From: Desulfobulbaceae bacterium
GTDB taxonomy: Bacteria > Desulfobacterota > Desulfobulbia > Desulfobulbales > VMSU01
Reading direction: 5' to 3'
NCBI GenBank assembly: GCA_013792005.1
Contig: VMSU01000140.1
Span: 1-37,307, forward strand
Length of the DNA: 37,307 nt
Made by a program: the position numbers and the translations under genes. Positions 3,663 through 35,911 of the stretch are shown piece by piece. The notes below the pieces were generated by a model. That model had not been told where the DNA came from. It ran no database searches and was given only the letters and a program-made list of their open reading frames with translations. How positions within the stretch are numbered: the stretch's first letter is position 1; each line of letters begins with the position of its first letter.

Positions 3663-3737
3663 ATGATATATCTTAATCAATTGGCCTTGGATCAGAATTA
3701 TCAACTTGGTTGCAAAGCAGAACTAAAACACTCTCAG
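3663..3737 (+). pseudogene. Possible inverted N-terminal scrap of the IS30 transposase
   Basis: On the plus strand, opposite to the rest of the IS30 remnant, 3663-3737 reads MIYLNQLALDQNYQLGCKAE followed by LKHSQ. Ungapped, this resembles the typical IS30 N-terminus (L-T-L-E-Q-R-Y-Q-I ... H-S-Q), with roughly half of 19 positions matching from memory of the family. If real, the 5' end of the element was inverted relative to its body. The piece overlaps the last codon of wzz. It is short and could be chance. Confidence 0.3.
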
Positions 3738-5146
3738 TGTTTCACCTCGTCTTGGACTGGCTGGCAAAATGGGAGGGAAAGGGCTAAAATCATGGCGCAC
3801 AAGAATCCGACCATAACCGACAAAAACAGTATCAGCCGCGACCTTACAGGCAAGTCTTCCTGGGCTATTTGAGGTGAGTTGAGTGGTTTGAATAGTTCGC
3901 CGTGGTCTTGTCGGCAAGCCTGACGAGCTGCTAACAGCAGTGATGAATATTCTTTGACTAACACTGAATAATCGGCCGCTGCCTGCTGGATGAAATCAGC
4001 ACTTTTTATTGTCGGGGAATTGGTTTTCGAACGATCAATTTCAGTTTGTAGTGCCGCTTTTTGCGCAGCAAGATCGCGACGGGCGAGAAGGGATTGCTGA
4101 AGAAAGCTTGACATAGAAGCTTTATCTGAGAGATCGATGATCTGTTGGATAGTGTTGTCTCCTAATTGTACGGGGGCTTCACGTCCTGAAGTGGTGGCCT
4201 GTGGCTCTGCAGTTTGCGCTCGAAAGGAGTTGATATCGACAATGCTGCGATCAATTTCTCCGATATTGCTTGAAATTTCTTCAATCCGCAGCTGGGTTTC
4301 TACTAAAAATGTGGCTGCAGCCTGATCGGGATTTTCAAATAACCCGCCCAACATAGGCCGAAAATATATTTCGTTGAAACTCTCTAACCTGCTCTCCATG
4401 TCACTACTGTTCATCCCATTTTGACTGACAAGCATTTTGAGACGATTGTCCTCACCGATTAACCTTAATCCGTTTTTTATCCGAGTGAGAGTATGACGAG
4501 CGGTAAGAATATCCGATGTAGTGAGAAACGCTAATTTATCGTTGACAATTCCCGTATTGTCAAGTCGGGTGTCAATTAATATCCGGTATTTCTGACTGAA
4601 AATTTCGCTCCATGCCCCAGGCAAGGTACTCGCCAGAATGGTTCCTTGCTCGGACGACAAATTAAGCTCAGTGTGATCAACGATAATTTTCAACCCGCGC
4701 TCAAACACGCGCTTAAGCTCTTCTGTGTATTCGTTATTAATTTGTTCAATCTCGGATAATGAAATGTTTTTTGCTTTTAACCGCAACTGATATTTCTGCT
4801 GTATCCCTTCAGTCGTCGGTATCCCGTATTCAACCTGAATGGCATCGCGCAATTTATCAGTGACAGATAACCCTAGTTTTCCCGCGGCACGGGCGAGGAC
4901 CTCAGGAATGAGTAGGTCCTGGGGAGAAAACCTGGTGCCGTTGGGATAGGTCGACTTATCAATTCCCAATAATTCTACAAAATACACCGTCGATGTCTGG
5001 GCTGTCACCTTATTGACTAATAGAAAAATCCCTGCCCCCAGAAAAAAAATTACAGGGATGATCATTAGCAGTCCTCGGCGATGCCAGAGTTTTTGCAAGA
5101 TATCGGTGATGGATATTTCTTCCTGGTAGGTTTGATCTATTCTCAT
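3734..5146 (-). CDS. Wzz/chain-length determinant family polysaccharide co-polymerase
   Basis: The protein of about 470 residues has the two-membrane-helix Wzz layout. A short cytoplasmic N-terminus is followed by helix GLLMIIPVIFFLGAGIFLLV. A long, mostly helical and charged periplasmic region of about 400 residues comes next, then a C-terminal helix LILFLSVMVGFLCAMILALS and a short tail. Such proteins set O-antigen or exopolysaccharide chain length in the inner membrane together with a polymerase. There is no C-terminal tyrosine kinase domain. The start is uncertain: TTG at 5200 is in frame, but ATG at 5146 has GGAGA upstream (11 nt away) and is preferred. No glycosyltransferase or polymerase genes adjoin it. 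It diverges from the wsp operon, which makes it a plausible c-di-GMP-linked output (inference). The decayed IS30 lies directly downstream. Confidence 0.82.
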   Translation of the reverse strand: MRIDQTYQEEISITDILQKLWHRRGLLMIIPVIFFLGAGIFLLVNKVTAQTSTVYFVELLGIDKSTYPNGTRFSPQDLLIPEVLARAAGKLGLSVTDKLRDAIQVEYGIPTTEGIQQKYQLRLKAKNISLSEIEQINNEYTEELKRVFERGLKIIVDHTELNLSSEQGTILASTLPGAWSEIFSQKYRILIDTRLDNTGIVNDKLAFLTTSDILTARHTLTRIKNGLRLIGEDNRLKMLVSQNGMNSSDMESRLESFNEIYFRPMLGGLFENPDQAAATFLVETQLRIEEISSNIGEIDRSIVDINSFRAQTAEPQATTSGREAPVQLGDNTIQQIIDLSDKASMSSFLQQSLLARRDLAAQKAALQTEIDRSKTNSPTIKSADFIQQAAADYSVLVKEYSSLLLAARQACRQDHGELFKPLNSPQIAQEDLPVRSRLILFLSVMVGFLCAMILALSLPFCQPVQDEVKH

Positions 5147-5713
5147 TCTTAAAAAATCTCCGTCCGTAAAAGAGTATTGGGTCAGTAAGTCAATCTCCAA
5201 GAAAATATCCCGGCGCCATTTTCTAAAATTTCCTCACGTACTTTTCGAAAAACGCAGAAAATCGTTTTGCATAAAAAGTCCTCGGCTTGAATCAAAATAT
5301 CTGGTCAAAGAGGCCTATATTATATTACTAAATCTGAGACTTTTACCATATACCTTGATCCCTGCCTTGCTACAAGCAATCTTTTCCCTCACCACCACTC
5401 CCTCTATCTCGTAAAAATCATACCTCATAAACTTTTTCCAGCCTCTCCTCTCTCCCCTTCGACTCCGCTCAGAAAATGATCGCCTTGACGGTCTTGAGTG
5501 GCGCAGGGAGGGATCAGCAAAAGGCTTACGCTCTTCATGGAGAGCGATTTTTTTAATGTGTCGTCTGATGTATTAATACCACCCATTAAAAAAAAAATTT
5601 CCTTCTTTGTTCTGGGATAACAATTTGATAGAATGCTAACCAAGCACCTGGGTATGGAGTCGAATAGCCAACCCCAGTCCCTCTAAATTGCCTACAAAAT
5701 GAAGGACTCAACA
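5147..5713. other. Intergenic region between wzz and wspA
   Basis: This 567-bp divergent region must hold the promoters of wzz (minus) and wspA (plus), but I could not identify convincing -35/-10 pairs. It contains an intrinsic-terminator-like hairpin (5529-5554). Just after that, 11-nt complementary arms (5548-5558 and 5584-5594) allow the terminator's U-tract to pair with a downstream A-tract. Open frames here (for example 5425-5643, minus) have no recognisable similarity and no ribosome-binding site, and are not called. Confidence 0.5.
5529..5554 (+). terminator. Candidate intrinsic terminator in the wsp leader
   Basis: A perfect 6-bp stem CGCTCT/AGAGCG with loop TCATGG is followed by A and seven T residues on the plus strand. 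It has the form of a Rho-independent terminator. No plus-strand gene precedes it. It therefore either ends a small unannotated transcript or acts as a leader attenuator about 160 nt before wspA. Confidence 0.5.
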
Positions 5714-7381
5714 ATGTTTTATAAATCATTAAGCGTCAAACTCCGGCTCGTCGGTTTCGTCATCCTCTTGCTTTCTTTGTTCATAGGGTCCGGACTCTTC
5801 GGGATCATGGGCATGCGCAGCAGTAACAACTCCCTCTCCTTGGTCTACACCAACGAGGTCATTCCCCTCACCAAACTAGAACAACTCCACAGCCTTATCC
5901 ATGCCGAGATCATTCAGCAGGTTGACCGCCTGCTTTTTGAGCAAATCACCTGGGAGGAATGCCAACTCAAGGTAGAAAAGGCCAAAACTCAAATTAACAA
6001 ACACTGGCAGAGCCTGAACACCCTCAACTCATCGGAAAAAAATGTCAGCACAACCGAAAAATGGCAAGACTCCTACTCTCTCATGGCTAACACCACCGAT
6101 GACGTCCTGAACAATCTCACACTTTTGCTTCAAAGCCATGACCTTGAACGCCTAGACCTTTTCACGGACAAGAAACTCTACCCCTTAGGAGAACTCTATA
6201 GTGAAAAAATCGACCTGATGACCAGAGACCATCTGGCCATGATCGACAAGGAATACCAAATATCGCAGCAACGCTTTATCGTTGCAAAACAGAGCTTTAT
6301 CCTTGCTCTCCTGGTCGGCGTGGCTGTCTCTATCTTCCTCAGCTTCTTAATCATCAAAAGCATCAACACACCACTCTCCATGATCACCACCGCCATGAAA
6401 AATCTATCCCATGGCAATATCAGTGAAAAAATCAGCTATGACCGCCAAGACGAATTCGCCATCCTGACCAACGGTTTCAACCAGATGTCCACCTATCTCT
6501 CTGACCTGATCTCCGAGATCGAACGCTCAGGCATTCAGGTCACAAGTTCAATCACCGAAATTGCCGCCACCATCAAACAACAGGAGACCACGGTCAACGA
6601 GCAGGCCGCCACCTCCAATGAAATTGCCGCCTCTACCACCGAAATCGCCGCCACTGCCGAAAACCTGATGGAGACCATGTCCAAGGTCACCGACATGGCA
6701 CAACACACCGCCATGGCCGCGTCACAGAGTCATTCCCGCCTGAACAACATCAACAGCATCATGAAAAAGATGGAGGAATCATCGCAAACCATCGTCACCA
6801 AACTTTCCATCCTGAGCGAAAAGGCCCGCACCATTGCTGGGGTGACCAAGACCATCAATAAGATCGCCGACCAGACCAACCTCCTGTCCCTTAACGCCGC
6901 CATTGAAGCTGAAAAAGCCGGTGAATACGGCGCAGGGTTCTCGGTTGTGGCATCGGAGATCAGACGCCTCGCCGACCTGACGGCCGTAGCCACCTTCGAT
7001 ATCGAACAGATGGTCTCCGAAGTCCAATCCTCGGTAGCCAGTGGAGTAATGAATATTGAAAAATTTGCTGACGATGTCCGCCGCGGCTTTCAGGAGGTCC
7101 AGATCAGCTCCAACCAGATCTCTCAAGTCATTGATCAAGTCCAGGCGATACGACCACCGATCGAAACTGTCAACGAAGGTATTGCCGCCCAGTCCCTTGG
7201 CGCCAAACAGATCAGTGAATCCGTTGATCAACTAAACGAGGCGGCCCAACAAACCGCAGAATCGGTATCTCAGACCAGCCAGACCATTTTCCAACTGAAC
7301 AGAGCGGCCCTTATCCTCAGAGACTCGGTCGCCAAGTTCAAAGTCAAATCCGGCCCGATATCTCCAGATAACGAGTCATGA
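5714..7381 (+). CDS. wspA: Wsp-type methyl-accepting receptor (WspA-like)
   Basis: This is a membrane chemoreceptor of about 555 residues. TM1 (about residues 11-31) is followed by a helical periplasmic four-helix-bundle-type sensor (about 32-190), TM2 (about 195-215), a HAMP segment and a long cytoplasmic coiled coil. The signalling tip is ADQTNLLSLNAAIEAEKAGE, followed by GFSVVASEIRRLAD and TAVATFDIEQMV, the variant typical of WspA/FrzCD-like receptors. In Pseudomonas, WspA clusters on surface contact and activates the WspE kinase. ATG at 5714 is chosen because AAGGA lies 7 nt upstream; an earlier ATG at 5699 is in frame. It is the first gene of the seven-gene wsp-like operon. There is no CheR-docking pentapeptide at the C-terminus. 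Confidence 0.88.
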   Translation: MFYKSLSVKLRLVGFVILLLSLFIGSGLFGIMGMRSSNNSLSLVYTNEVIPLTKLEQLHSLIHAEIIQQVDRLLFEQITWEECQLKVEKAKTQINKHWQSLNTLNSSEKNVSTTEKWQDSYSLMANTTDDVLNNLTLLLQSHDLERLDLFTDKKLYPLGELYSEKIDLMTRDHLAMIDKEYQISQQRFIVAKQSFILALLVGVAVSIFLSFLIIKSINTPLSMITTAMKNLSHGNISEKISYDRQDEFAILTNGFNQMSTYLSDLISEIERSGIQVTSSITEIAATIKQQETTVNEQAATSNEIAASTTEIAATAENLMETMSKVTDMAQHTAMAASQSHSRLNNINSIMKKMEESSQTIVTKLSILSEKARTIAGVTKTINKIADQTNLLSLNAAIEAEKAGEYGAGFSVVASEIRRLADLTAVATFDIEQMVSEVQSSVASGVMNIEKFADDVRRGFQEVQISSNQISQVIDQVQAIRPPIETVNEGIAAQSLGAKQISESVDQLNEAAQQTAESVSQTSQTIFQLNRAALILRDSVAKFKVKSGPISPDNES

Positions 7382-7444
7382 CAGGTCAGGACAGCGCCAT
7401 AATGCAGAGTGCACAACGTCCAGAACACTCGGGGGACCTCATTC

Positions 7445-7885
7445 GTGCTTCTCGTACTCTTTAAACTTCAGAATGATGATTATGCCATTGACAGTAAACG
7501 CGTGGTCGAAATCATCCCATTTCTGCAGACGCAAAAAATTCCAATGACCCCCAAATACATCACCGGCATGGTCAACTATCGCGGCACCCCGGTACCGGTC
7601 ATCGACCTCGGCCTGCTCCTGAATGATCAAGTATGCCAACAGCTGTACAGCACCAGGATCATCCTGACCAGTGTCACCCTTGGGGGGAATCTCCGAAAAA
7701 TTGTCGGACTGCTTGCTGAAAATGTGACGGAGACCATTAAGACGGCCAAAGACTGGCGCCCCAAAGCAACTGACAAGGGACCACTCTTCCTCGACAACGC
7801 TTTACTTAATCATTCCATGGTCCGCTGGTTCGAGCCAGAGCAGATGCTCCCTGACGACATCCCTGGGCTCTCCTTCATGGATTAG
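7445..7885 (+). CDS. wspB: CheW-like coupling protein (WspB-like)
   Basis: This single CheW domain of about 146 residues begins LLVLFKLQNDDYAIDSKRVVEIIP and continues with ITGMVNYRGTPVPVIDLGLLL, the usual CheW core. CheW proteins bridge receptor and CheA kinase in the signalling array. By position between receptor and CheR it corresponds to WspB. The start is uncertain. GTG at 7445 has GGGGGA 8 nt upstream and starts right at the domain. GTG at 7409, which adds 12 unconserved residues, is also in frame but has no ribosome-binding site. It lies 63 nt after wspA. A 274-nt gap follows before wspC, unusually long for this operon. Confidence 0.85.
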   Translation: MLLVLFKLQNDDYAIDSKRVVEIIPFLQTQKIPMTPKYITGMVNYRGTPVPVIDLGLLLNDQVCQQLYSTRIILTSVTLGGNLRKIVGLLAENVTETIKTAKDWRPKATDKGPLFLDNALLNHSMVRWFEPEQMLPDDIPGLSFMD

Positions 7886-7934
7886 GCAAACTACTCAGGT
7901 TATCGGTTTTCGGAGTCTCGCAGGCTCGCTTACC

Positions 7935-7963
7935 TGCTTAGACATCCCGTGACTTTTTGCGAG
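7935..7963 (+). repeat. 29-nt dispersed repeat, copy A
   Basis: This stretch, starting TGCTTAG and ending GACTTTTTGCGAG, matches 36492-36520 at 26 of 29 positions on the same strand. It sits in the long wspB-wspC gap. The flanking CTCGCA (7918-7923) can pair with its TGCGAG end, giving a large-loop hairpin. Confidence 0.6.
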
Positions 7964-8159
7964 TTCATCATAATTCTTTTAACCGTAACCCTAGATAATT
8001 ACGACTAATCAACATAACGGCTTGCTTTGACAATTAAAAACCAACCGCATCGCCTCACCCTATACGGGCAGAAGGTTAGAGCCGCTAGAAACTTATCCAG
8101 TATATCTGGAACAGCTGCCAAGGGACTCCGTCTCTACGCTATTAACCAAACTACTCTAT

Positions 8160-9392
8160 ATGTCAGACAATAGCCTGATCTCCCTCATTCTTGACTCAGT
8201 GCTTAAAGAGGCCATGGGACTCAACATCTCCTCCATTGGCGCAAATTCACTCAAGCATGCCATTGGCAGGAGAATGCGGGCTCTGGAGATGGAAAACACC
8301 CTCCAGTATCTGAACCTGATCAAAAAATCGACCCCTGAACTTAATGAACTTATTGAGGAAGTTGCGGTGAACGAGACGTGGTTCTTTCGTGACGAAGCGC
8401 CGTTCATCGCCCTGCGCGAATACGCCACCGCCTTTTTCCAGCAGGGCAAGAATAAGTCGCTACGACTCCTGAGCATCCCCTGCTCGACAGGAGAAGAACC
8501 ATATTCCATGGCCATGACTCTGATCGAGGCCGGCATCCCCGCTCACTCCTTCACCATAGACGCCGTTGATATCAGTCGTCGCTCACTTGAGGTTGCTCGC
8601 CAAGGCATCTATCGCCCGAACTCATTTCGCACAACTTATGCCAAACGCTACCAAGGATATTTCTCTAAAACTAGACAAAGCTACGCCTTGGATAAATCCA
8701 TCAAAGGGCTCATCAGGTTTCACCGGGGCAACCTCCTCCACCTCACCCCGCCCCTGACCAAAACCACCTACAATGTGATCTTTTGCCGTAACCTGTTGAT
8801 CTACCTGGACTCAAGCTTTCACCAAAAAGCCATCGACACCTTCAGCGCCCTTCTTGATGATGCAGGACTGCTGTTCATCGGACATGCCGAATCAGGCATT
8901 TTCAGCCACAGTCGTTTCACTCAGGCCCCACACCCCAAAGCCTTCGCCTTTTATAAAAGGCCGGAAGAGTCAGAAAAAAAATCTTCCAAATACCTCTCTG
9001 GTAACGCCTCAGCAAACGCCAGTGCCTTTCTTTTTAAGAACTCTGTATCCTATGCCAATGCAACCATCACACACACTCCGACGAACCGCTACGGAGAACT
9101 CGACAGCTTGGATCACCAGATCAAGGCACACGAAGACCAGATCCAGAAACAGGGTCCAACCGCAGAAAGCTTCTACCAACTGGCAACTATTTTCGAACAA
9201 AAAAATGAGTGGAAAAGCGCGATCAGCATGCTGAAAAAAGCTATTTACCTAGACCCAAACTCCATCGAGGCAATTGACATGCTGGCAGCGATCTATCAAC
9301 GCCTTGGGGATGAGGCCAACTATCAATCCTGCCTCAACCGAGGACGTAGAATCATCACCCGTCTGGCCATGCCGACCGACCCTAATATATAA
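8160..9392 (+). CDS. wspC: CheR-type receptor methyltransferase with TPR tail (WspC-like)
   Basis: In this 410-residue protein the N-terminal helical CheR domain is followed by the SAM-dependent methyltransferase. Motifs are NETWFFRDEAPF (about 77-88), the SAM loop IPCSTGEEPYSMAM (about 109-122) and VIFCRNLLIYLD (about 208-219). The C-terminus (about 330-400) carries TPR-like helices, including FYQLATIFEQKNEWKSAISM and AIDMLAAIYQRLGDEANYQS. The CheR-TPR fusion is characteristic of WspC, which methylates glutamates in WspA's cytoplasmic helices to tune its activity. ATG at 8160 lacks an obvious ribosome-binding site. With the 274-nt gap upstream this suggests separate translational control, or an internal promoter. 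Confidence 0.9.
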   Translation: MSDNSLISLILDSVLKEAMGLNISSIGANSLKHAIGRRMRALEMENTLQYLNLIKKSTPELNELIEEVAVNETWFFRDEAPFIALREYATAFFQQGKNKSLRLLSIPCSTGEEPYSMAMTLIEAGIPAHSFTIDAVDISRRSLEVARQGIYRPNSFRTTYAKRYQGYFSKTRQSYALDKSIKGLIRFHRGNLLHLTPPLTKTTYNVIFCRNLLIYLDSSFHQKAIDTFSALLDDAGLLFIGHAESGIFSHSRFTQAPHPKAFAFYKRPEESEKKSSKYLSGNASANASAFLFKNSVSYANATITHTPTNRYGELDSLDHQIKAHEDQIQKQGPTAESFYQLATIFEQKNEWKSAISMLKKAIYLDPNSIEAIDMLAAIYQRLGDEANYQSCLNRGRRIITRLAMPTDPNI

Positions 9393-9438
9393 TAATAGCC
9401 TAATCCCGAGCCTGATCGCTTACCCAAGGAAGAAACCC

Positions 9439-10116
9439 GTGTCATTATCATACGCTGACCTTAACATTGACGACTGCTGGAACCAGATTGGTGTCTTCAG
9501 CAAGGAACAGAGCCGCTGTGAACGACTAGCAGAACTGGCCCACTGCCTGAACTGCGACCAGTACACCAGCACAGGCCGACTGCTCCTCAACCGCCCTCTT
9601 CCCGACGACTACCGCCGTGAACTCAGCGAACACTTGAGCCACCCCATCATCAAACAAGCCAAACGGACTCAATCGGCCTTCATCTTCAGAGCCGGCGATG
9701 AGTGGCTGGGCGTAACATCGACCATGATCAAGGAAGTGGTGGACATGGGCCCCATCCACTCCATCCCCCACAAGAGCAGCCGCATCTTTCGTGGTATCGT
9801 CAACATCCGTGGGCGACCGGAACTCTGCGTCTCCATTGGTGGCGTGCTAAGGATCGAACCAGGCACCAGACAACAGGGCACACCCGCGCCCGAGCGACTG
9901 ATCGTTGCCGCCAAAGACGGACAGAGTATCGTCTTTCCAGTCAGCGAAGTCATGGGGCCAGTGCTCTATGACGCCAGCATACTCAAGCCCCTGCCCATAA
10001 CCGTCTCCGGCTCAAAGGCGGTCTATACCAAAGGAATACTGAATATCAACGACCAAGAGGTCGGCATGTTGGATGACGCCATGCTGTTTCGTATCCTGAC
10101 CAGAAACCTGGGATGA
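9439..10116 (+). CDS. wspD: Second CheW-like coupling protein (WspD-like)
   Basis: GTG at 9439 with AAGGAAG 6 nt upstream gives a 225-residue protein. A longer in-frame ATG at 9274 would overlap wspC and add unconserved residues, so it is rejected. The N-terminus has the WspD signature: DDCWNQIGVFSKEQSRCERL, then CLNCDQYTSTGRLLL, a Cys-containing extension not found in ordinary CheW. From about residue 75 a CheW domain follows (IFRAGDEWLGVTSTMIKEVV, FRGIVNIRGRPELCVSIGGV). Having two different CheWs (WspB and WspD) is a hallmark of Wsp systems; they may differ in receptor binding and array position. Its stop overlaps the wspE start by 4 nt (ATGA). Confidence 0.9.
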   Translation: MSLSYADLNIDDCWNQIGVFSKEQSRCERLAELAHCLNCDQYTSTGRLLLNRPLPDDYRRELSEHLSHPIIKQAKRTQSAFIFRAGDEWLGVTSTMIKEVVDMGPIHSIPHKSSRIFRGIVNIRGRPELCVSIGGVLRIEPGTRQQGTPAPERLIVAAKDGQSIVFPVSEVMGPVLYDASILKPLPITVSGSKAVYTKGILNINDQEVGMLDDAMLFRILTRNLG

Positions 10117-12830
10117 CCATGACTGATCTCAACGACATGTCCCTTCTGGACCTATTTTTGATGGAGACTGGAAACCAATCCATTACCCTCACCCATGAGC
10201 TGTCGCTATGGGACAGCGACCATGGCGGGGACGGTCCTAACTTTACCGTCATGCACCGAGCAGTCCATTCCATCGCCGGTGCGGCCAGAATAGTCGACCT
10301 GCAAGAAATCATTGATCTGACTCAGGCAATGGAGAAGGGGATACGTGTAGCCTCGAGCCACCCCACCCCCGAAATTAGAAATCTTCTCGAAGCGGCAACC
10401 AACCACCTAGGCCATCTGACCACAAGTAATCCGAACCAAATCCAAGAGTCGCTTAAGGAGAAAGAGGGGCTACTTGCCGACCTGATCAAACAACTGCGGG
10501 CATTAAAGACCCCATCAATAGAGCCTGGCACAAGCACCCCTAAAACCAAAGCGCCTGCCGCCGCTCCCACCTCTTCCTTTGCTTCCAGCCAAGGGATGTT
10601 CCCGATCTTTACTGAAGATGCAGAAAACCACCTCGCCGTCCTCTCTGACAATCTTATTCAAATTGAAAAAAATCCCACTGCCATCGTCCTCCTTGAATCA
10701 TCGATGCGAGCGATTCACTCTCTTAAGGGGGCCGCCAGGGTTATCGGCTTGACCGACATCGTTACCCTGACCCACACCATGGAAGAACTCTTCATCGCGG
10801 CCCAAAACAAGATCCTCACCCTCACCTCGGACCATATTGATACTCTGTTCTCGGCTACCGATCTCATCCGCAGCCTAACCAAAGAAAATGAAGAGACCGC
10901 CCCCCAATGGTTTGAGAGCAACAAAAAACAGATCACCGCTCTGGCCGATCAAATATTCACCATCGTCGATAAACACGAACAAATCGTCGTTGAACCGGCT
11001 GCCCCAATTATCACCAAGACCTCCCCTGAACCAACAACTGAAGGAAAAGTCGTTGGTTCAGCAAAAAATGTGTCAGATCGGCTCCTGCGGGTTTCATCGC
11101 AAGGCATGAACCAGATCCTGGCCTTAGCCAGCGAAGCCATGGTCGAATCGCGCTGGCTGCCCAACCTGATTGCATCCCTCAATCGTCTGAAGAGGCAACA
11201 AGATACTGCCTGGTACACCCTGGAAAAGTTTCGGCTTCAATTACCGGAAACAGGAATGCCGATCGCCATCGCCCACGGCCTGGACGAAATCAGCGCTAAA
11301 CTCAAACGGAACCAGGACTTCCTCGGCACCCAAATTGCTGAACTCACAGAGCACAGCACTCATAGTGTCAGAATTTCCAATCGACTGCATAATGAGGTCA
11401 TCAACAACCGAATGCAGCCCCTGTCCGAAGGCCTGATCGGTATTCCCCGCTTAGTCCGCGAGTTGGCCCGCAAGCTCAATAAACCAGTCCGTTTCGAAGT
11501 CATCGGCGCCGACACCCTGATCGACAGGGACATTCTCGAAAAACTGGAGTCTCCCTTTACCCATATTGTCACCAATGCCATTGATCACGGGATCGAAACC
11601 CCGGCAGAGAGAGAAAAATCCGGGAAACCACCAGAGGCAACCATCCTCCTGAACGCCAGGCACCATGCCGGAATGATGGTTATTACCATCTGCGACGACG
11701 GGCGCGGCCTTGACTATGATGCTTTGCGCCAAAAAGCCGTGGAGAAACGCCTGGTTTCGGCCAAAGTCGCAGCAGAACTGACCGAAACGGAGCTTGCTCA
11801 TTTTCTGTTCTTACCGAACTTCACCACCAAGGCTGTCGCCGACAGTACATCAGGCCGAGGCGTAGGACTTGACATCGTCCACAACACCATTCGAGAAATC
11901 CGGGGCAGCATCGAACTCCACTCCACAGCCGGACAGGGATTGACCTTCGAACTCCAGCTACCGCTGACTCTTTCGATTATTCGCGGACTACTCATCGAAA
12001 TCAACAACGAACCATATGCCTTGCCGCTGATCAGCATCGACCATGCTGTCAGGTTACCCATCAGCGAGGTAAAGGAGATGGGTAACCGTCCATATTTCAT
12101 CTTTAACAACCGGAGATTCGGGCTCATCAGCGCACAGCAGACCCTGGAACTCAAGGAACAAACCAGGGACGATGACATCCTGTCCGTAATCGTCTTAAGT
12201 AGCGGAATCAACAGCTACGGCCTGATCGTCGACCGCTTTCATGGCATTCGAGATATGGTAATCCAACCATTAAACCAACGACTCGGCAAACTCAGAAGCA
12301 TAAGCGCTGCCGCCATTGCCGAAGATGGCACCCCGATCCTGATTCTCGACATCAATGACCTTCGTCAGACCATGGATCACCTGATCTCTGGCGACCGTCT
12401 CCACCGGATCACCCCCCAGATTATCCCAAGCGCCAGCCGTTCAACCCACAAACGAATTTTGGTGGTCGACGACTCGATCACCGTCAGGGAAGTGGAACGA
12501 AAAATCCTTACCGATCATGGTTTCCTGGTAGATATGGCGGTGGATGGTCTTGATGGCTGGGGGATGGTGCGGCGCAACACCTATGATTTGATTATCACCG
12601 ACATTGACATGCCCAACCTTGATGGCATCGAACTTCTGGTCCACATCAAAAACTCCAAAGAACACGAGAATATCCCAGTGATTATTCTTTCATACAAGGA
12701 TCGTGAAGAGGACAAAACGCGTGGTTTGGATGCCGGCGCCGACTACTATTTAACTAAATCAAGCTTCCACGACCAAGCTTTGATTGAAGCCGTGGAAGAT
12801 CTTATCGGTACACCTGGAGAATTTCGATGA
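10113..12830 (+). CDS. wspE: CheA-type hybrid histidine kinase with C-terminal receiver (WspE-like)
   Basis: This is a 905-residue cytoplasmic kinase. It has two HPt domains: His52 in AVHSIAGAARIV and His202 in RAIHSLKGAARVIG. Dimerisation and ATPase regions follow, with the N-box HIVTNAIDHGIE (about 484-495), G1 CDDGRGLDYDAL and G2 GRGVGLDIV. Next is a CheW-like P5 domain (about 640-770), then a receiver (about 785-900) with Asp830 in TDIDMPNLDG and a conserved Lys in YYLTKSS. In Pseudomonas, WspE phosphorylates WspR and WspF; the attached receiver may be a phosphate sink or modulator. ATGA overlaps on both sides couple it to wspD and wspF. A second in-frame ATG at 10119 is an alternative start. 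Confidence 0.93.
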   Translation: MTMTDLNDMSLLDLFLMETGNQSITLTHELSLWDSDHGGDGPNFTVMHRAVHSIAGAARIVDLQEIIDLTQAMEKGIRVASSHPTPEIRNLLEAATNHLGHLTTSNPNQIQESLKEKEGLLADLIKQLRALKTPSIEPGTSTPKTKAPAAAPTSSFASSQGMFPIFTEDAENHLAVLSDNLIQIEKNPTAIVLLESSMRAIHSLKGAARVIGLTDIVTLTHTMEELFIAAQNKILTLTSDHIDTLFSATDLIRSLTKENEETAPQWFESNKKQITALADQIFTIVDKHEQIVVEPAAPIITKTSPEPTTEGKVVGSAKNVSDRLLRVSSQGMNQILALASEAMVESRWLPNLIASLNRLKRQQDTAWYTLEKFRLQLPETGMPIAIAHGLDEISAKLKRNQDFLGTQIAELTEHSTHSVRISNRLHNEVINNRMQPLSEGLIGIPRLVRELARKLNKPVRFEVIGADTLIDRDILEKLESPFTHIVTNAIDHGIETPAEREKSGKPPEATILLNARHHAGMMVITICDDGRGLDYDALRQKAVEKRLVSAKVAAELTETELAHFLFLPNFTTKAVADSTSGRGVGLDIVHNTIREIRGSIELHSTAGQGLTFELQLPLTLSIIRGLLIEINNEPYALPLISIDHAVRLPISEVKEMGNRPYFIFNNRRFGLISAQQTLELKEQTRDDDILSVIVLSSGINSYGLIVDRFHGIRDMVIQPLNQRLGKLRSISAAAIAEDGTPILILDINDLRQTMDHLISGDRLHRITPQIIPSASRSTHKRILVVDDSITVREVERKILTDHGFLVDMAVDGLDGWGMVRRNTYDLIITDIDMPNLDGIELLVHIKNSKEHENIPVIILSYKDREEDKTRGLDAGADYYLTKSSFHDQALIEAVEDLIGTPGEFR

Positions 12831-13849
12831 AAATCGGCATAGTCAATGATTCAGTGATGGCGGTTGAAGTCTTACGTCGTATTATCGTGACCTGCCCCGA
12901 GCACCAGGTAGCCTGGTGCGCAGCAAACGGCGCCGAAGCCGTCGCTCTATGCCACCAAACCCCGCCCGACCTGGTCCTGATGGATCTGCTGATGCCGGTA
13001 ATGGATGGGGTCGAAGCCACCCGCCGGATCATGAAAACCACTCCCTGCGCCATCCTGATCGTCACCGCCAGCGTCACCGGCAACTCATCCCTGGTTTACG
13101 AGGCCATGGGTGCCGGAGCCCTTGATGTGGTAGCCACACCGGTCCTGGGATTGAGCGGAGCTGGAACAGCAGCCAATGAACTGTTACGAAAAATTGACAT
13201 AATCGGCAAATTAATCGGCTGCTCACCCAAGTCCACCCGGCGGCCCAAACCCCACCAAGAGAGCAAGCCCCCAAACCGCCCCCAAGATCCGCCCCTTATA
13301 GTCATTGGCGCCTCAACCGGAGGTCCGCAAGCACTCACGACCGTACTGACCAAATTCCCAGCCAACCTGCCCGCGGCAGTGGTAATTGTTCAGCACATGG
13401 ATAAAAAATTCACCCACGGATTAGCTACCTGGCTCAACCACCAGGTAACAATGCCAGTGAAAATAATCCACGAAAAAGATCGCCCCAAAAAAGGGATAAT
13501 CCTGGTGCCCAGCACCGAATACCACTTGATCATGACCAACAGTGGTTCCCTAATCTATAGCCAGGAACCAGTTGACAACTTTTATCACCCCTCGGTTGAT
13601 GTTTTTTTCCAATCCATCGTCAAAAACTGGACCGGAAAAATTATTGGCATCCTCCTGACGGGAATGGGCCGAGACGGCGCAACAGGACTTCTGTCCCTAA
13701 AAGAAGAAGGCCACCATACCATTGCCCAAGATGAAGCTACCTCAGTAGTCTACGGCATGCCTAAGGCCGCTATGCAACTTAACGCGACCAAAGAAATTCT
13801 CCCTATCCACGAAATTGGCGAGCGAATTGTCGCCCTGCTCGGGAGATAA
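12827..13849 (+). CDS. wspF: CheB-type methylesterase response regulator (WspF-like)
   Basis: In this 340-residue protein an N-terminal receiver beginning MKIGIVNDSVMAVEVLRR has phosphoacceptor Asp53 (LMDLLMPVMDG). The acidic pair is Asn-Asp rather than Asp-Asp, which is usual for WspF. After a proline-rich linker (about 130-155) the CheB methylesterase has all three catalytic residues: Ser163 (GASTGG), His190 (VQHMDK) and Asp283 (GMGRDGA). Phosphorylated WspF demethylates the receptor and shuts the system down; loss of WspF in Pseudomonas gives wrinkly, high c-di-GMP colonies. It starts inside the wspE stop (ATGA), with GGAG about 8 nt upstream. The frame is intact, so the pathway is probably adaptable rather than locked on. 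Confidence 0.93.
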   Translation: MKIGIVNDSVMAVEVLRRIIVTCPEHQVAWCAANGAEAVALCHQTPPDLVLMDLLMPVMDGVEATRRIMKTTPCAILIVTASVTGNSSLVYEAMGAGALDVVATPVLGLSGAGTAANELLRKIDIIGKLIGCSPKSTRRPKPHQESKPPNRPQDPPLIVIGASTGGPQALTTVLTKFPANLPAAVVIVQHMDKKFTHGLATWLNHQVTMPVKIIHEKDRPKKGIILVPSTEYHLIMTNSGSLIYSQEPVDNFYHPSVDVFFQSIVKNWTGKIIGILLTGMGRDGATGLLSLKEEGHHTIAQDEATSVVYGMPKAAMQLNATKEILPIHEIGERIVALLGR

Positions 13850-13852
13850 CCC

Positions 13853-14866
13853 ATGCAACCCAATCTCTTCAGCGACATTAAATCCATCAACACCTTCCGG
13901 ATCTCTGTCCTGCTCATCGATGACCAACCGATGATCGCCGAGGCGGTACGCCGCGCCCTGGAGGACGAGAAAGATATCGAGTTCCATTATTGTCAGGACC
14001 CCAGCAAGGCTATTAAAATCGCCAACCGGATTCACCCGACCATCATCCTCCAAGACTTGGTCATGCCGGAAGTTAACGGCCTGATGATGGTCAGATTTTT
14101 TCGGGTCAACAAAGAAACGAACCAGATACCAATCATCATTCTCTCCACCAAGGAGGATCCCAAGGTCAAAAGCGAGGCGTTCAGCTTAGGAGTCAATGAC
14201 TATCTGGTCAAACTTCCAGACAAAATTGAACTCATCGCCCGACTTCGTTACCACTCAACTGCTTACCTCTATCACCGGCAGCGCGACGAAGCCTTTGCCG
14301 CCCTTGAAGAGAGTCAGCGCAAGCTGCACGAAGCCAATCAGGCGCTCGAAAAATTATCTTCGCTGGATGGGCTGACCGGAATCGCCAATCGTCGTCAGTT
14401 CGATAAAGTCATAGCGAACGAATGGAACCGGGCGATTCGCAACTACAGCCCCATTTCCCTGCTAATGCTGGACATCGATTTTTTCAAACTCTACAATGAC
14501 ACCTACGGACACCAAAAAGGCGATACCTGCCTAAAACAGGTAGCTGAAGTTCTCAAAGCCAATGAAAAACGCCCGGCTGATCTCGCTGCCCGATACGGCG
14601 GCGAGGAGTTTGCCTTCATCCTCCCGGAAACCGACAAACACGGGGCTCTGGAAAAAGCCTCCTCAATTCTTAATATGCTCCGCGAGGCCAACATTCCCCA
14701 TAAGGCTTCAACGGTCCACACGATCTTGACCGCAAGCATCGGTGTCGCCACCATGAACGCTGAGCGGGGCACTTCGCCCGACAACCTAATCCTCCAGGCT
14801 GACAAGGCCTTATATATCGCCAAAGAACGCGGACGAAATCAACTGGTGGTATCCGGAGAAGAGTAA
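13853..14866 (+). CDS. wspR: Receiver-GGDEF diguanylate cyclase (WspR-like)
   Basis: The 337-residue response regulator has an N-terminal receiver (LLIDDQPMIAEAVRRALEDE) with phosphoacceptor Asp68 in LQDLVMPEVNG and LSTKEDPKVKSEAFSLGVND downstream. A helical linker (about 140-170) leads to a GGDEF domain with DGLTGIANRR and the active-site GGEEF at residues 249-253. The RxxD product-inhibition site (Arg240-Asp243) lies exactly five residues upstream. All features needed for phosphorylation-activated, feedback-inhibited synthesis of c-di-GMP from two GTP are present. Segments such as AARYGGEEFA and LSTKE match Pseudomonas WspR as I remember it. It begins 3 nt after wspF with GGGAG upstream, and is the last gene of the operon. 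Confidence 0.94.
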   Translation: MQPNLFSDIKSINTFRISVLLIDDQPMIAEAVRRALEDEKDIEFHYCQDPSKAIKIANRIHPTIILQDLVMPEVNGLMMVRFFRVNKETNQIPIIILSTKEDPKVKSEAFSLGVNDYLVKLPDKIELIARLRYHSTAYLYHRQRDEAFAALEESQRKLHEANQALEKLSSLDGLTGIANRRQFDKVIANEWNRAIRNYSPISLLMLDIDFFKLYNDTYGHQKGDTCLKQVAEVLKANEKRPADLAARYGGEEFAFILPETDKHGALEKASSILNMLREANIPHKASTVHTILTASIGVATMNAERGTSPDNLILQADKALYIAKERGRNQLVVSGEE

Positions 14867-34249: not shown

Positions 34250-35911
34250 TCAGAAGTCCTCGAAGGAATCTTCATTGTCCAGGGGGATGACGGATTTCGG
34301 ATTGATGGCCTTGGGCTTGACTGGCGGTTTTTGAGGAGAGCTTTTGGGTTGGGGGAGTACTGTCAGTGCCGGTCTTGCCGGTATTTTTTTGATCGAACTA
34401 GGGATGGTTGAAAGTCTTGTAGAGGGTAATTTTTGTGCCGCAGGCGATTGTTTTGCGGTGCTTGCTCCTTTACCATCGATCAAGGAACGTAGATCTATGA
34501 CGGTATCGATCATACTTGCTGCTTGACTGCTTAACTCTTCGGCCGCTGCCGCAGATTCTTCGGATGAGGCGGCGTTTTGCTGAGTGACCGAGTCCATCTG
34601 TGAGATAGCCAGATTGATCTGACTAAGTCCCTGGGATTGTTCCTTGGAAGCATCGCTGATTTCTGAGAGCAGACCTCCGACCTTGGTGCTGCTGATAGCG
34701 ACTTCTTTAAACGCCACCGTTACGGTGCCAACGATCTCTTTGCCAGCTGCTACTTTTTGAACTGTTTGTTCGATGAGTTGGGCGGTATTCTTCGCAGCAT
34801 CGGTAGCTCGCATGGCCAGGCTTCTGACTTCGTCGGCCACGACCGCGAATCCTGCCCCGGCCTCACCGGCACGAGCGGCTTCAACTGCAGCGTTTAAAGC
34901 CAGGAGGTTGGTTTGAAAAGCGATTTCGTCAATGGTTTTGATGATCTTGTAGGTCTGCTCACTTGCCGAGGAGATATCTGCCATTGAGCGGTCCATGGCA
35001 TCCATTGCCGTGTTGGTTTCTCCGATGGTAGACAGTGACTGCTTCATCATGATATCGGCTTGGGCCGCATTGTCCGCGTTTTGTTTGATCATGGAGTTCA
35101 GTTCTTCCATGGAAGCGGATGTTTCTTCGAGGGCTGAGGCCTGCTCGGAGGCGCCATCTGCCAAGTTCTGACTGGAGTCGGAGATCTGGTTTGCCGCTGC
35201 CGCGATCTGACCTGCGGCGCTGTCCAGTTTTTTGACGCTTTCATTGATAGGGTTGGTGATGTTGCGCGTCAGGAGATAGGCAATCAACATCGCGACTGCG
35301 GCTGAGAGGAAGGTAATAATGGTAGCCATGGTGATGTTTTTGGTCTTGACCGTGTCAAAGAGTGCGTCTGCTTCTTTGGCGTCGTTCTCCAGGGAGAGGA
35401 TGATCCTGGCAAGTGGGGCATCGGCATTGGAGCGTTTTTCGACGATTCGATCAGCCATGGCGCGAATAGAAATCCTGGTGGCCTCATCAAGAACAGCATC
35501 GTTTGCTTTGGCCTCCAGTGTCGGGAGTATTTCATCCCTGAATATGGCTATGTAGGCTTTGAAGTTGGTGATATACTCGTTAGCCCAGCCTTTTTCTTCA
35601 TCGGTGTCCACCAGGGAGAGGAGGGTCATTGCGTCAGTGGCTGCTTGGCGTTCCAATTCGGCTAATTCCTCTTTACTTGTATCAAGTTTCCGGTTGATGA
35701 TGGCATCGGCCACTGTGCCGTAGGACATGTCCAGGGTTTCCATGACATGACCAACTTCGAGGACATCGGTAGACTTTTGCATTCCTATGTCCTGGAGGCT
35801 CGCTAGTTCCTTCATCGCTTGAATTTGGGCGGCAACGGCCGCGCTCAGCATTAAGACCACGAACAGAAAACCGCAGATTATTTTTTGACTCATTCTCAGG
35901 CGTGAAAACAT
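34250..35911 (-). CDS. Methyl-accepting chemotaxis protein
   Basis: This is a 553-residue chemoreceptor. TM1 (about 9-29) is followed by a helical periplasmic four-helix-bundle-type sensor (about 30-195), TM2 (about 197-217), a HAMP-like stretch and a long coiled coil. The signalling tip is [20 protein letters not shown], followed by [20 protein letters not shown]. The last 60 residues are a Pro/Lys/Ser-rich flexible tail ending SFEDF, reminiscent of the xWExF pentapeptide that tethers CheR/CheB. It has its own promoter and a ribosome-binding site (AGGGAA 7 nt before ATG). Its receptor class differs from WspA, so it probably serves another array. The ligand is unknown. Confidence 0.95.

Follow-up and report, generated by a model that had tools for sequence, protein, structure and literature searches.

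Does a run of seven chemosensory genes in a Desulfobacterota genome constitute a genuine Wsp system, of the kind that in Pseudomonas couples contact with a surface to the biofilm signal c-di-GMP, and, if so, how did the lineage come by it? According to Kessler et al. 2021 (PMC8552884), Wsp is exclusive to betaproteobacteria and gammaproteobacteria and arose in the former, in Azoarcus. The host of the present locus belongs to neither class and therefore lies outside the published range of Wsp, which is a reported distribution and not a defining trait. An earlier note on this DNA had proposed a complete Wsp operon here and had left its source as either transfer or an older origin. On the evidence below, we are highly confident that the locus encodes a genuine and probably functional WspABCDEFR system of the diguanylate cyclase output type that has long been resident in this Desulfobacterota lineage.

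The wsp locus and its host genome

The window, that is, the whole 37,307-nt stretch of DNA analyzed, corresponds to contig C140 in a draft genome of 4.0 Mb (252 contigs, 97.6% complete). Seven wsp genes occupy positions 5699 to 14866 on the forward strand in the order wspA-B-C-D-E-F-R. Pfam matches and a residue check show that every product has the domains expected of it and that the catalytic residues are intact. The features are as follows.

5699–7381, + strand: wspA, membrane chemoreceptor with two transmembrane segments, a periplasmic four-helix sensor, HAMP and an MCP signaling domain (Pfam TarH, HAMP, MCPsignal)
7409–7885, + strand: wspB, CheW-like coupling protein (Pfam CheW; 30% identity to Pseudomonas)
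7908–7971: dispersed genomic repeat of about 63 bp, inside the wspB–wspC spacer
8160–9392, + strand: wspC, CheR methyltransferase with TPR at the C terminus (Pfam CheR and TPR; CSTGEE motif)
9439–10116, + strand: wspD, CheW-like protein with an N-terminal four-Cys motif and a GTG start (CheW fold by structure model and Foldseek)
10113–12830, + strand: wspE, CheA-type kinase, Hpt-Hpt-HATPase-CheW-REC (Pfam)
12827–13849, + strand: wspF, REC-CheB methylesterase (PRK12555, tree, catalytic residues)
13853–14866, + strand: wspR, REC-GGEEF diguanylate cyclase with an RxxD I-site (match to WspR 3i5a)

The operon claimed by the earlier note is borne out by the ORFs, by Pfam and by 30 to 51% identity to the Pseudomonas proteins. 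For WspA through WspF and WspR, the identities to the Pseudomonas locus (L048) are 37, 30, 31, 39, 41, 49 and 51%, such that all seven proteins reach the rule of at least 30% identity used by Kessler et al. 2021, with WspB borderline. The span had been given as 5714 to 14866; its end stands, and its start is corrected to the wspA ATG at 5699, position 5714 being the next in-frame Met. The wspD gene most likely starts with the GTG at 9439, where an AAGGAAG-like site can be read upstream, and we rejected the mechanically called ORF from 9274 as over-extended.

The spacer between wspB and wspC is enlarged to 274 bp and holds the dispersed repeat, which has at least 39 further matches elsewhere in the same genome; in the relatives L117 and L119, wspB and wspC nearly abut. 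The repeat might split the wsp transcript. Scans for promoters and terminators gave signals no better than chance. Two further genes in the window were noted. A Wzz-like gene (3734–5200, − strand; below the Pfam cut-off) is divergent from wspA and is unmatched in L117, a genus relative in which both flanks are nevertheless present. A second MCP-domain protein, in which no HAMP was detected, is encoded away from the wsp operon (34250–35911, − strand).

The host genome carries two dsrA loci above the cut-off, scoring 584 and 496 bits (G000:C231:23317-24549 and G000:C28:25793-26935, each adjoined by a second dsr-like match), and the host is therefore a sulfate or sulfite reducer, in keeping with the anaerobic, probable Desulfobacterota host that had been proposed from the sequence. 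Matches to 24 GGDEF, 19 PilZ and 3 EAL domains indicate that it can make, bind and degrade c-di-GMP.

Domains, residues and the WspD cysteine motif

The diagnostic traits listed in the earlier note (a CheR-TPR fusion, a Cys-bearing WspD N terminus, a CheA-REC hybrid, a WspF with an Asn-Asp pair and a REC-GGDEF cyclase) were all found, and its claim of intact catalytic residues held when WspC, WspE, WspF and WspR were checked. Three observations go beyond it, namely a second Hpt domain in WspE, the four-Cys form of the WspD motif and the existence of alternative output genes.

WspA has hydrophobic transmembrane segments by hydropathy at about residues 10 to 39 and 192 to 224, a divergent sensor region and a signaling tip of the WspA type (NLLSLNAAIEAEKAGEYG). 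WspE keeps its N-box and G-boxes, ends in a REC domain and carries Hpt domains at residues 21 to 100 and 161 to 246, with His52 and His202 as phospho-acceptors. The number of Hpt domains varies among WspE proteins, from one in Pseudomonas and two in the window to as many as four elsewhere (L043); multiple-Hpt forms were noted in the window and in L043, L044, L100, L101, L167, L170 and L171. WspF scores 458.9 bits against PRK12555 (curated cut-off 342), retains D53, S163, H190 and D283, and has the N7-D8 pair that is present in nearly all WspF proteins. The alignment of WspR (residues 7 to 332) with WspR of Pseudomonas (PDB 3i5a; E 4e-108) runs end to end, and the phospho-Asp D68, the GGEEF motif (249–253) and the I-site R240xxD243 are intact. 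Note that an Asp in the GHxxGD motif (WspR D226) separates diguanylate cyclases from Hypr cGAMP synthases, which carry Ser or Thr there (PMC6456294). Because the window's WspR keeps this substrate-selecting Asp (GHQKGD), we rejected a Hypr identity for it.

The N-terminal pattern C-x(10-18)-C-x(6-9)-C-x2-C was found in 101 of 105 WspD proteins and in no WspB, the exceptions being two Phycisphaera-type loci, Pandoraea and one truncated ORF. In the window the residues are C13, C27, C36 and C39, plus H35, encoded within positions 9439–9560; a 25-row alignment that spans several phyla shows no variation in the four Cys and hardly any in the His beside the third. This pattern suggests a metal site. 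A structure model and Foldseek confirm a CheW fold for WspD, and Foldseek shows that fold only; model confidence is low around residues 17 to 22, in the loop of the Cys region. WspD has no sequence relative in the PDB, and our literature search found no paper discussing the four-Cys motif.

Among known systems, the locus most resembles the Wsp R-system of Pseudomonas, with which it shares gene order, domain architectures, a REC-GGEEF WspR with I-site, the WspD Cys motif and the WspF Asn-Asp pair. It differs in having two WspE Hpt domains rather than one, in the 30 to 51% identity of its proteins, in its placement in a clade of its own phylum in a rooted tree and in the repeat between wspB and wspC. 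The H-system of Burkholderia (PMC8552884) has the same wspA-F core, but its output is the WspH histidine kinase located 5′ of the cluster; we rejected the H type for the window because its output is REC-GGDEF and lies at the 3′ end. Halomonas chemosensory cluster 2 and its Geobacteraceae variants (PMC5907407) likewise combine a core containing a CheA-REC kinase and CheR-TPR with a diguanylate cyclase, but in another gene order, with an Hpt-REC-REC-GGDEF cyclase and with an extra CheY.

Phylogeny, genomic position and distribution

Every part of a Wsp system is a homologue of a chemotaxis protein, and the cluster could in principle be an ordinary chemotaxis cluster, serving flagella or pili, whose domains happen to look like those of Wsp. 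However, a concatenated WspE, WspC and WspF (E+C+F) tree, for which three further chemosensory systems of the same genome served as the outgroup, separates the Wsp clade from those systems with 100/100 support. In the WspF tree, too, all WspF proteins form a single clade (SH-aLRT 99) apart from the remaining CheB proteins of the order. The WspD four-Cys motif is present, the output is REC-GGDEF, and a Pfam domain survey found no CheY-only gene within the operon. Given these results, an ordinary chemotaxis cluster is barely conceivable. Chance assembly of the order is excluded because the complete A-F order recurs in many loci.

The same trees bear on the alternative that the operon was recently acquired by horizontal transfer from Pseudomonas or another beta- or gammaproteobacterium. 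Such a gift would fit the published record, in which Wsp occurs only in those classes and transfers are inferred among them (PMC8552884), and also the patchy occurrence within the phylum, where a WspF profile matched 25 of 395 genomes (E ≤ 1e-90); two of these matches are weak, which leaves about 23 of 395 counted as carriers. In contrast, the WspF proteins of all 15 order members group together (SH-aLRT 89), those of the family do so as well (97), and the branching tracks kinship. In the E+C+F tree, the window falls in a clade made only of its own phylum (98/97), and its WspF and WspR are only about 50% identical to those of Pseudomonas. The clades of the window's order and of beta/Pseudomonas are recovered in the WspR tree as well.

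Moreover, the wsp operon of the genus relative L117 lies at the same chromosomal place with the same neighbors, which comprise GNAT and LPG-synthase genes upstream and NlpC-ftsK-nusB-ribH downstream. These shared neighbors also led us to reject an assembly chimera. Recent transfer is unsupported because of the own-phylum clade, the branching by kinship and the common neighbors in the genus, and we regard it as very improbable. The gene trees, which follow kinship through genus, family, order and phylum, support the older origin among the two sources that had been proposed. An old transfer into the order or the phylum may nevertheless have occurred.

Pseudomonas is sister to Cupriavidus inside Burkholderiaceae in the E+C+F tree, as Kessler et al. 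inferred, and the group is a nested tip. AU tests rejected a root on the Burkholderiaceae/Pseudomonas branch (p = 7e-6; Azoarcus/Rhodocyclales lay outside this sample) and a Massilia-first root (p = 0.002). Deep branches among the Wsp clades are partly unresolved, and the outgroup branch is long. A betaproteobacterial origin of Wsp is thus weakened and not disproved, Azoarcus being outside the sample.

The operon is not peculiar to this genome. By taking as orthologues those proteins with E at most 1e-97 (other CheB proteins stand clearly apart at 1e-68 or weaker), we found WspF in 19 of the 58 sampled genomes of the order, the window's own included, and in 9 of 10 from its family. A scan with named taxa recovered WspF relatives in gammaproteobacteria besides Pseudomonas (Chromatiales, Thiotrichaceae, Tenderia, Methylococcaceae), in Alphaproteobacteria (Bosea, Sphingomonadales) and in Cyanobacteria, Planctomycetota, Verrucomicrobiota, Acidobacteriota, Elusimicrobiota, Deltaproteobacteria and betaproteobacteria; many of the non-Pseudomonas records are metagenome-assembled genomes (MAGs).

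The Wsp core therefore occurs in about seven phyla, and the complete A-F order in four. Of 58 Pseudomonadota loci, 49 have this complete order, as do 29 of the 37 loci retrieved from relatives inside the window's phylum (several others end at contig edges); Planctomycetota (Kuenenia) and Verrucomicrobiota contribute one locus each. Loci elsewhere in the phylum had the complete A-B-C-D-E-F in 17 of 20 cases, and those from other families of the order in 8 of 9. The order is rearranged or incomplete in loci of Cyanobacteria, Acidobacteriota and Elusimicrobiota. Individual departures include a split operon in which wspF-R lies on the strand opposite to wspA-E and diverges from it (L122, G017), a locus with wspA between wspE and wspF (L086, order B-C-D-E-A-F) and Burkholderia anthina (L047), where wspF and wspR are present and no wspA-E was detected in about 9.6 kb upstream.

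This locus and its relatives contradict the beta/gamma exclusivity of Wsp. The published search used MultiGeneBlast on the BCT division of GenBank with at most 2,000 hits (PMC8552884), and MAGs and unfinished genomes were probably under-represented in it. Earlier work had described CheR-TPR genes and ACF-type pathways in Deltaproteobacteria (PMC3447774), and HMM annotation has assigned single wsp-like genes in MAGs and environmental metagenomes (PMC8921683, PMC10608953). Our literature search turned up neither a report of a full Wsp operon beyond the beta- and gammaproteobacteria nor a description of collinear Wsp operons in Deltaproteobacteria.

The cue and the exchange of the output gene

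The gene 3′ of wspF encodes a REC-GGDEF protein both in the window's order and in Pseudomonas. Elsewhere this position is taken by a REC-SpoIIE gene (a Desulfovibrio MAG, Elusimicrobia, Phycisphaerales, Sphingomonadales and several families of the window's phylum; L043, L046, L054, L058 and L104), by a REC-class III cyclase (Moorena, Microcoleus and some Deltaproteobacteria; L038, L056, L100 and L171) or by a REC-histidine kinase (Verrucomicrobia and Acidobacteria; L042, L085 and L090). Representatives of the three types (L043, L100 and L042, respectively) share the core order and the WspF/WspE phylogeny with the window, but their output is a phosphatase, a cyclase or a kinase instead of a GGDEF enzyme. 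In four loci (L101, L170, L171 and L174), a class III cyclase gene and a SpoIIE gene occur together.

In the E+C+F tree, the users of SpoIIE and class III cyclase outputs form one clade (98/98) together with a single GGDEF user, Pseudanabaena. Because the branches nearest the root carry REC-GGDEF, a diguanylate cyclase output may be the ancestral state, although the outgroup branch is long. The wspA-F core is an old signaling chassis common to several phyla, whose output gene is a cyclase here and has been exchanged in other lineages. A broader proposition, to which we give even chances, is that wspA-F is an ancient chassis indifferent to its output, which predates the systems of betaproteobacteria and Pseudomonas and extends over at least seven phyla. 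Its output would have been swapped among diguanylate cyclase, SpoIIE-type phosphatase, class III cyclase and histidine kinase, the four-Cys (probably metal) site of WspD would be needed for function, and the Desulfobacterota copy would be one old branch.

The genes and their order, their domains and residues, the phylogeny and the genomic position are observed here, and the phosphorelay, c-di-GMP output and surface cue are modeled on Pseudomonas. By this analogy, WspA in the inner membrane would sense an envelope or surface cue and, with WspB and WspD, would control how WspE autophosphorylates at its two Hpt domains. This kinase would hand phosphate to WspR and to WspF, and WspR would make c-di-GMP, limited by its I-site. 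Methylation of WspA by WspC and demethylation by WspF would set the sensitivity.

Since the WspA sensor region is divergent, the cue may not be surface contact. A Wsp-family system whose cue or role is something other than attachment, such as redox, metal or envelope stress, with the WspD Cys acting as a metal or redox site, agrees with the identification above on membership and mechanism and competes with it on the cue only. We consider such a cue a real but lesser possibility. It is favored by the sensor being the most variable part of Wsp (PMC8552884), by the four WspD Cys that are invariant across phyla and by the coupling of the same core to quite different outputs in other lineages. Weighing against it, the metal or redox site is itself deduced, in a region where model confidence is low (residues 17–22).

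With its membership established as a cyclase-output Wsp system, the locus is a further member of a known family, and what is new is its evolutionary setting, by which the known range and age of Wsp are corrected. The exchangeable output, the multiple Hpt domains of WspE and the WspD Cys motif are further points of interest. A natural set with one core and different outputs makes the specificity between WspE and its response regulators, as well as the WspA cue, open to testing. Sulfate reducers form corrosive biofilms, and this locus is a concrete candidate for c-di-GMP control of their attachment.
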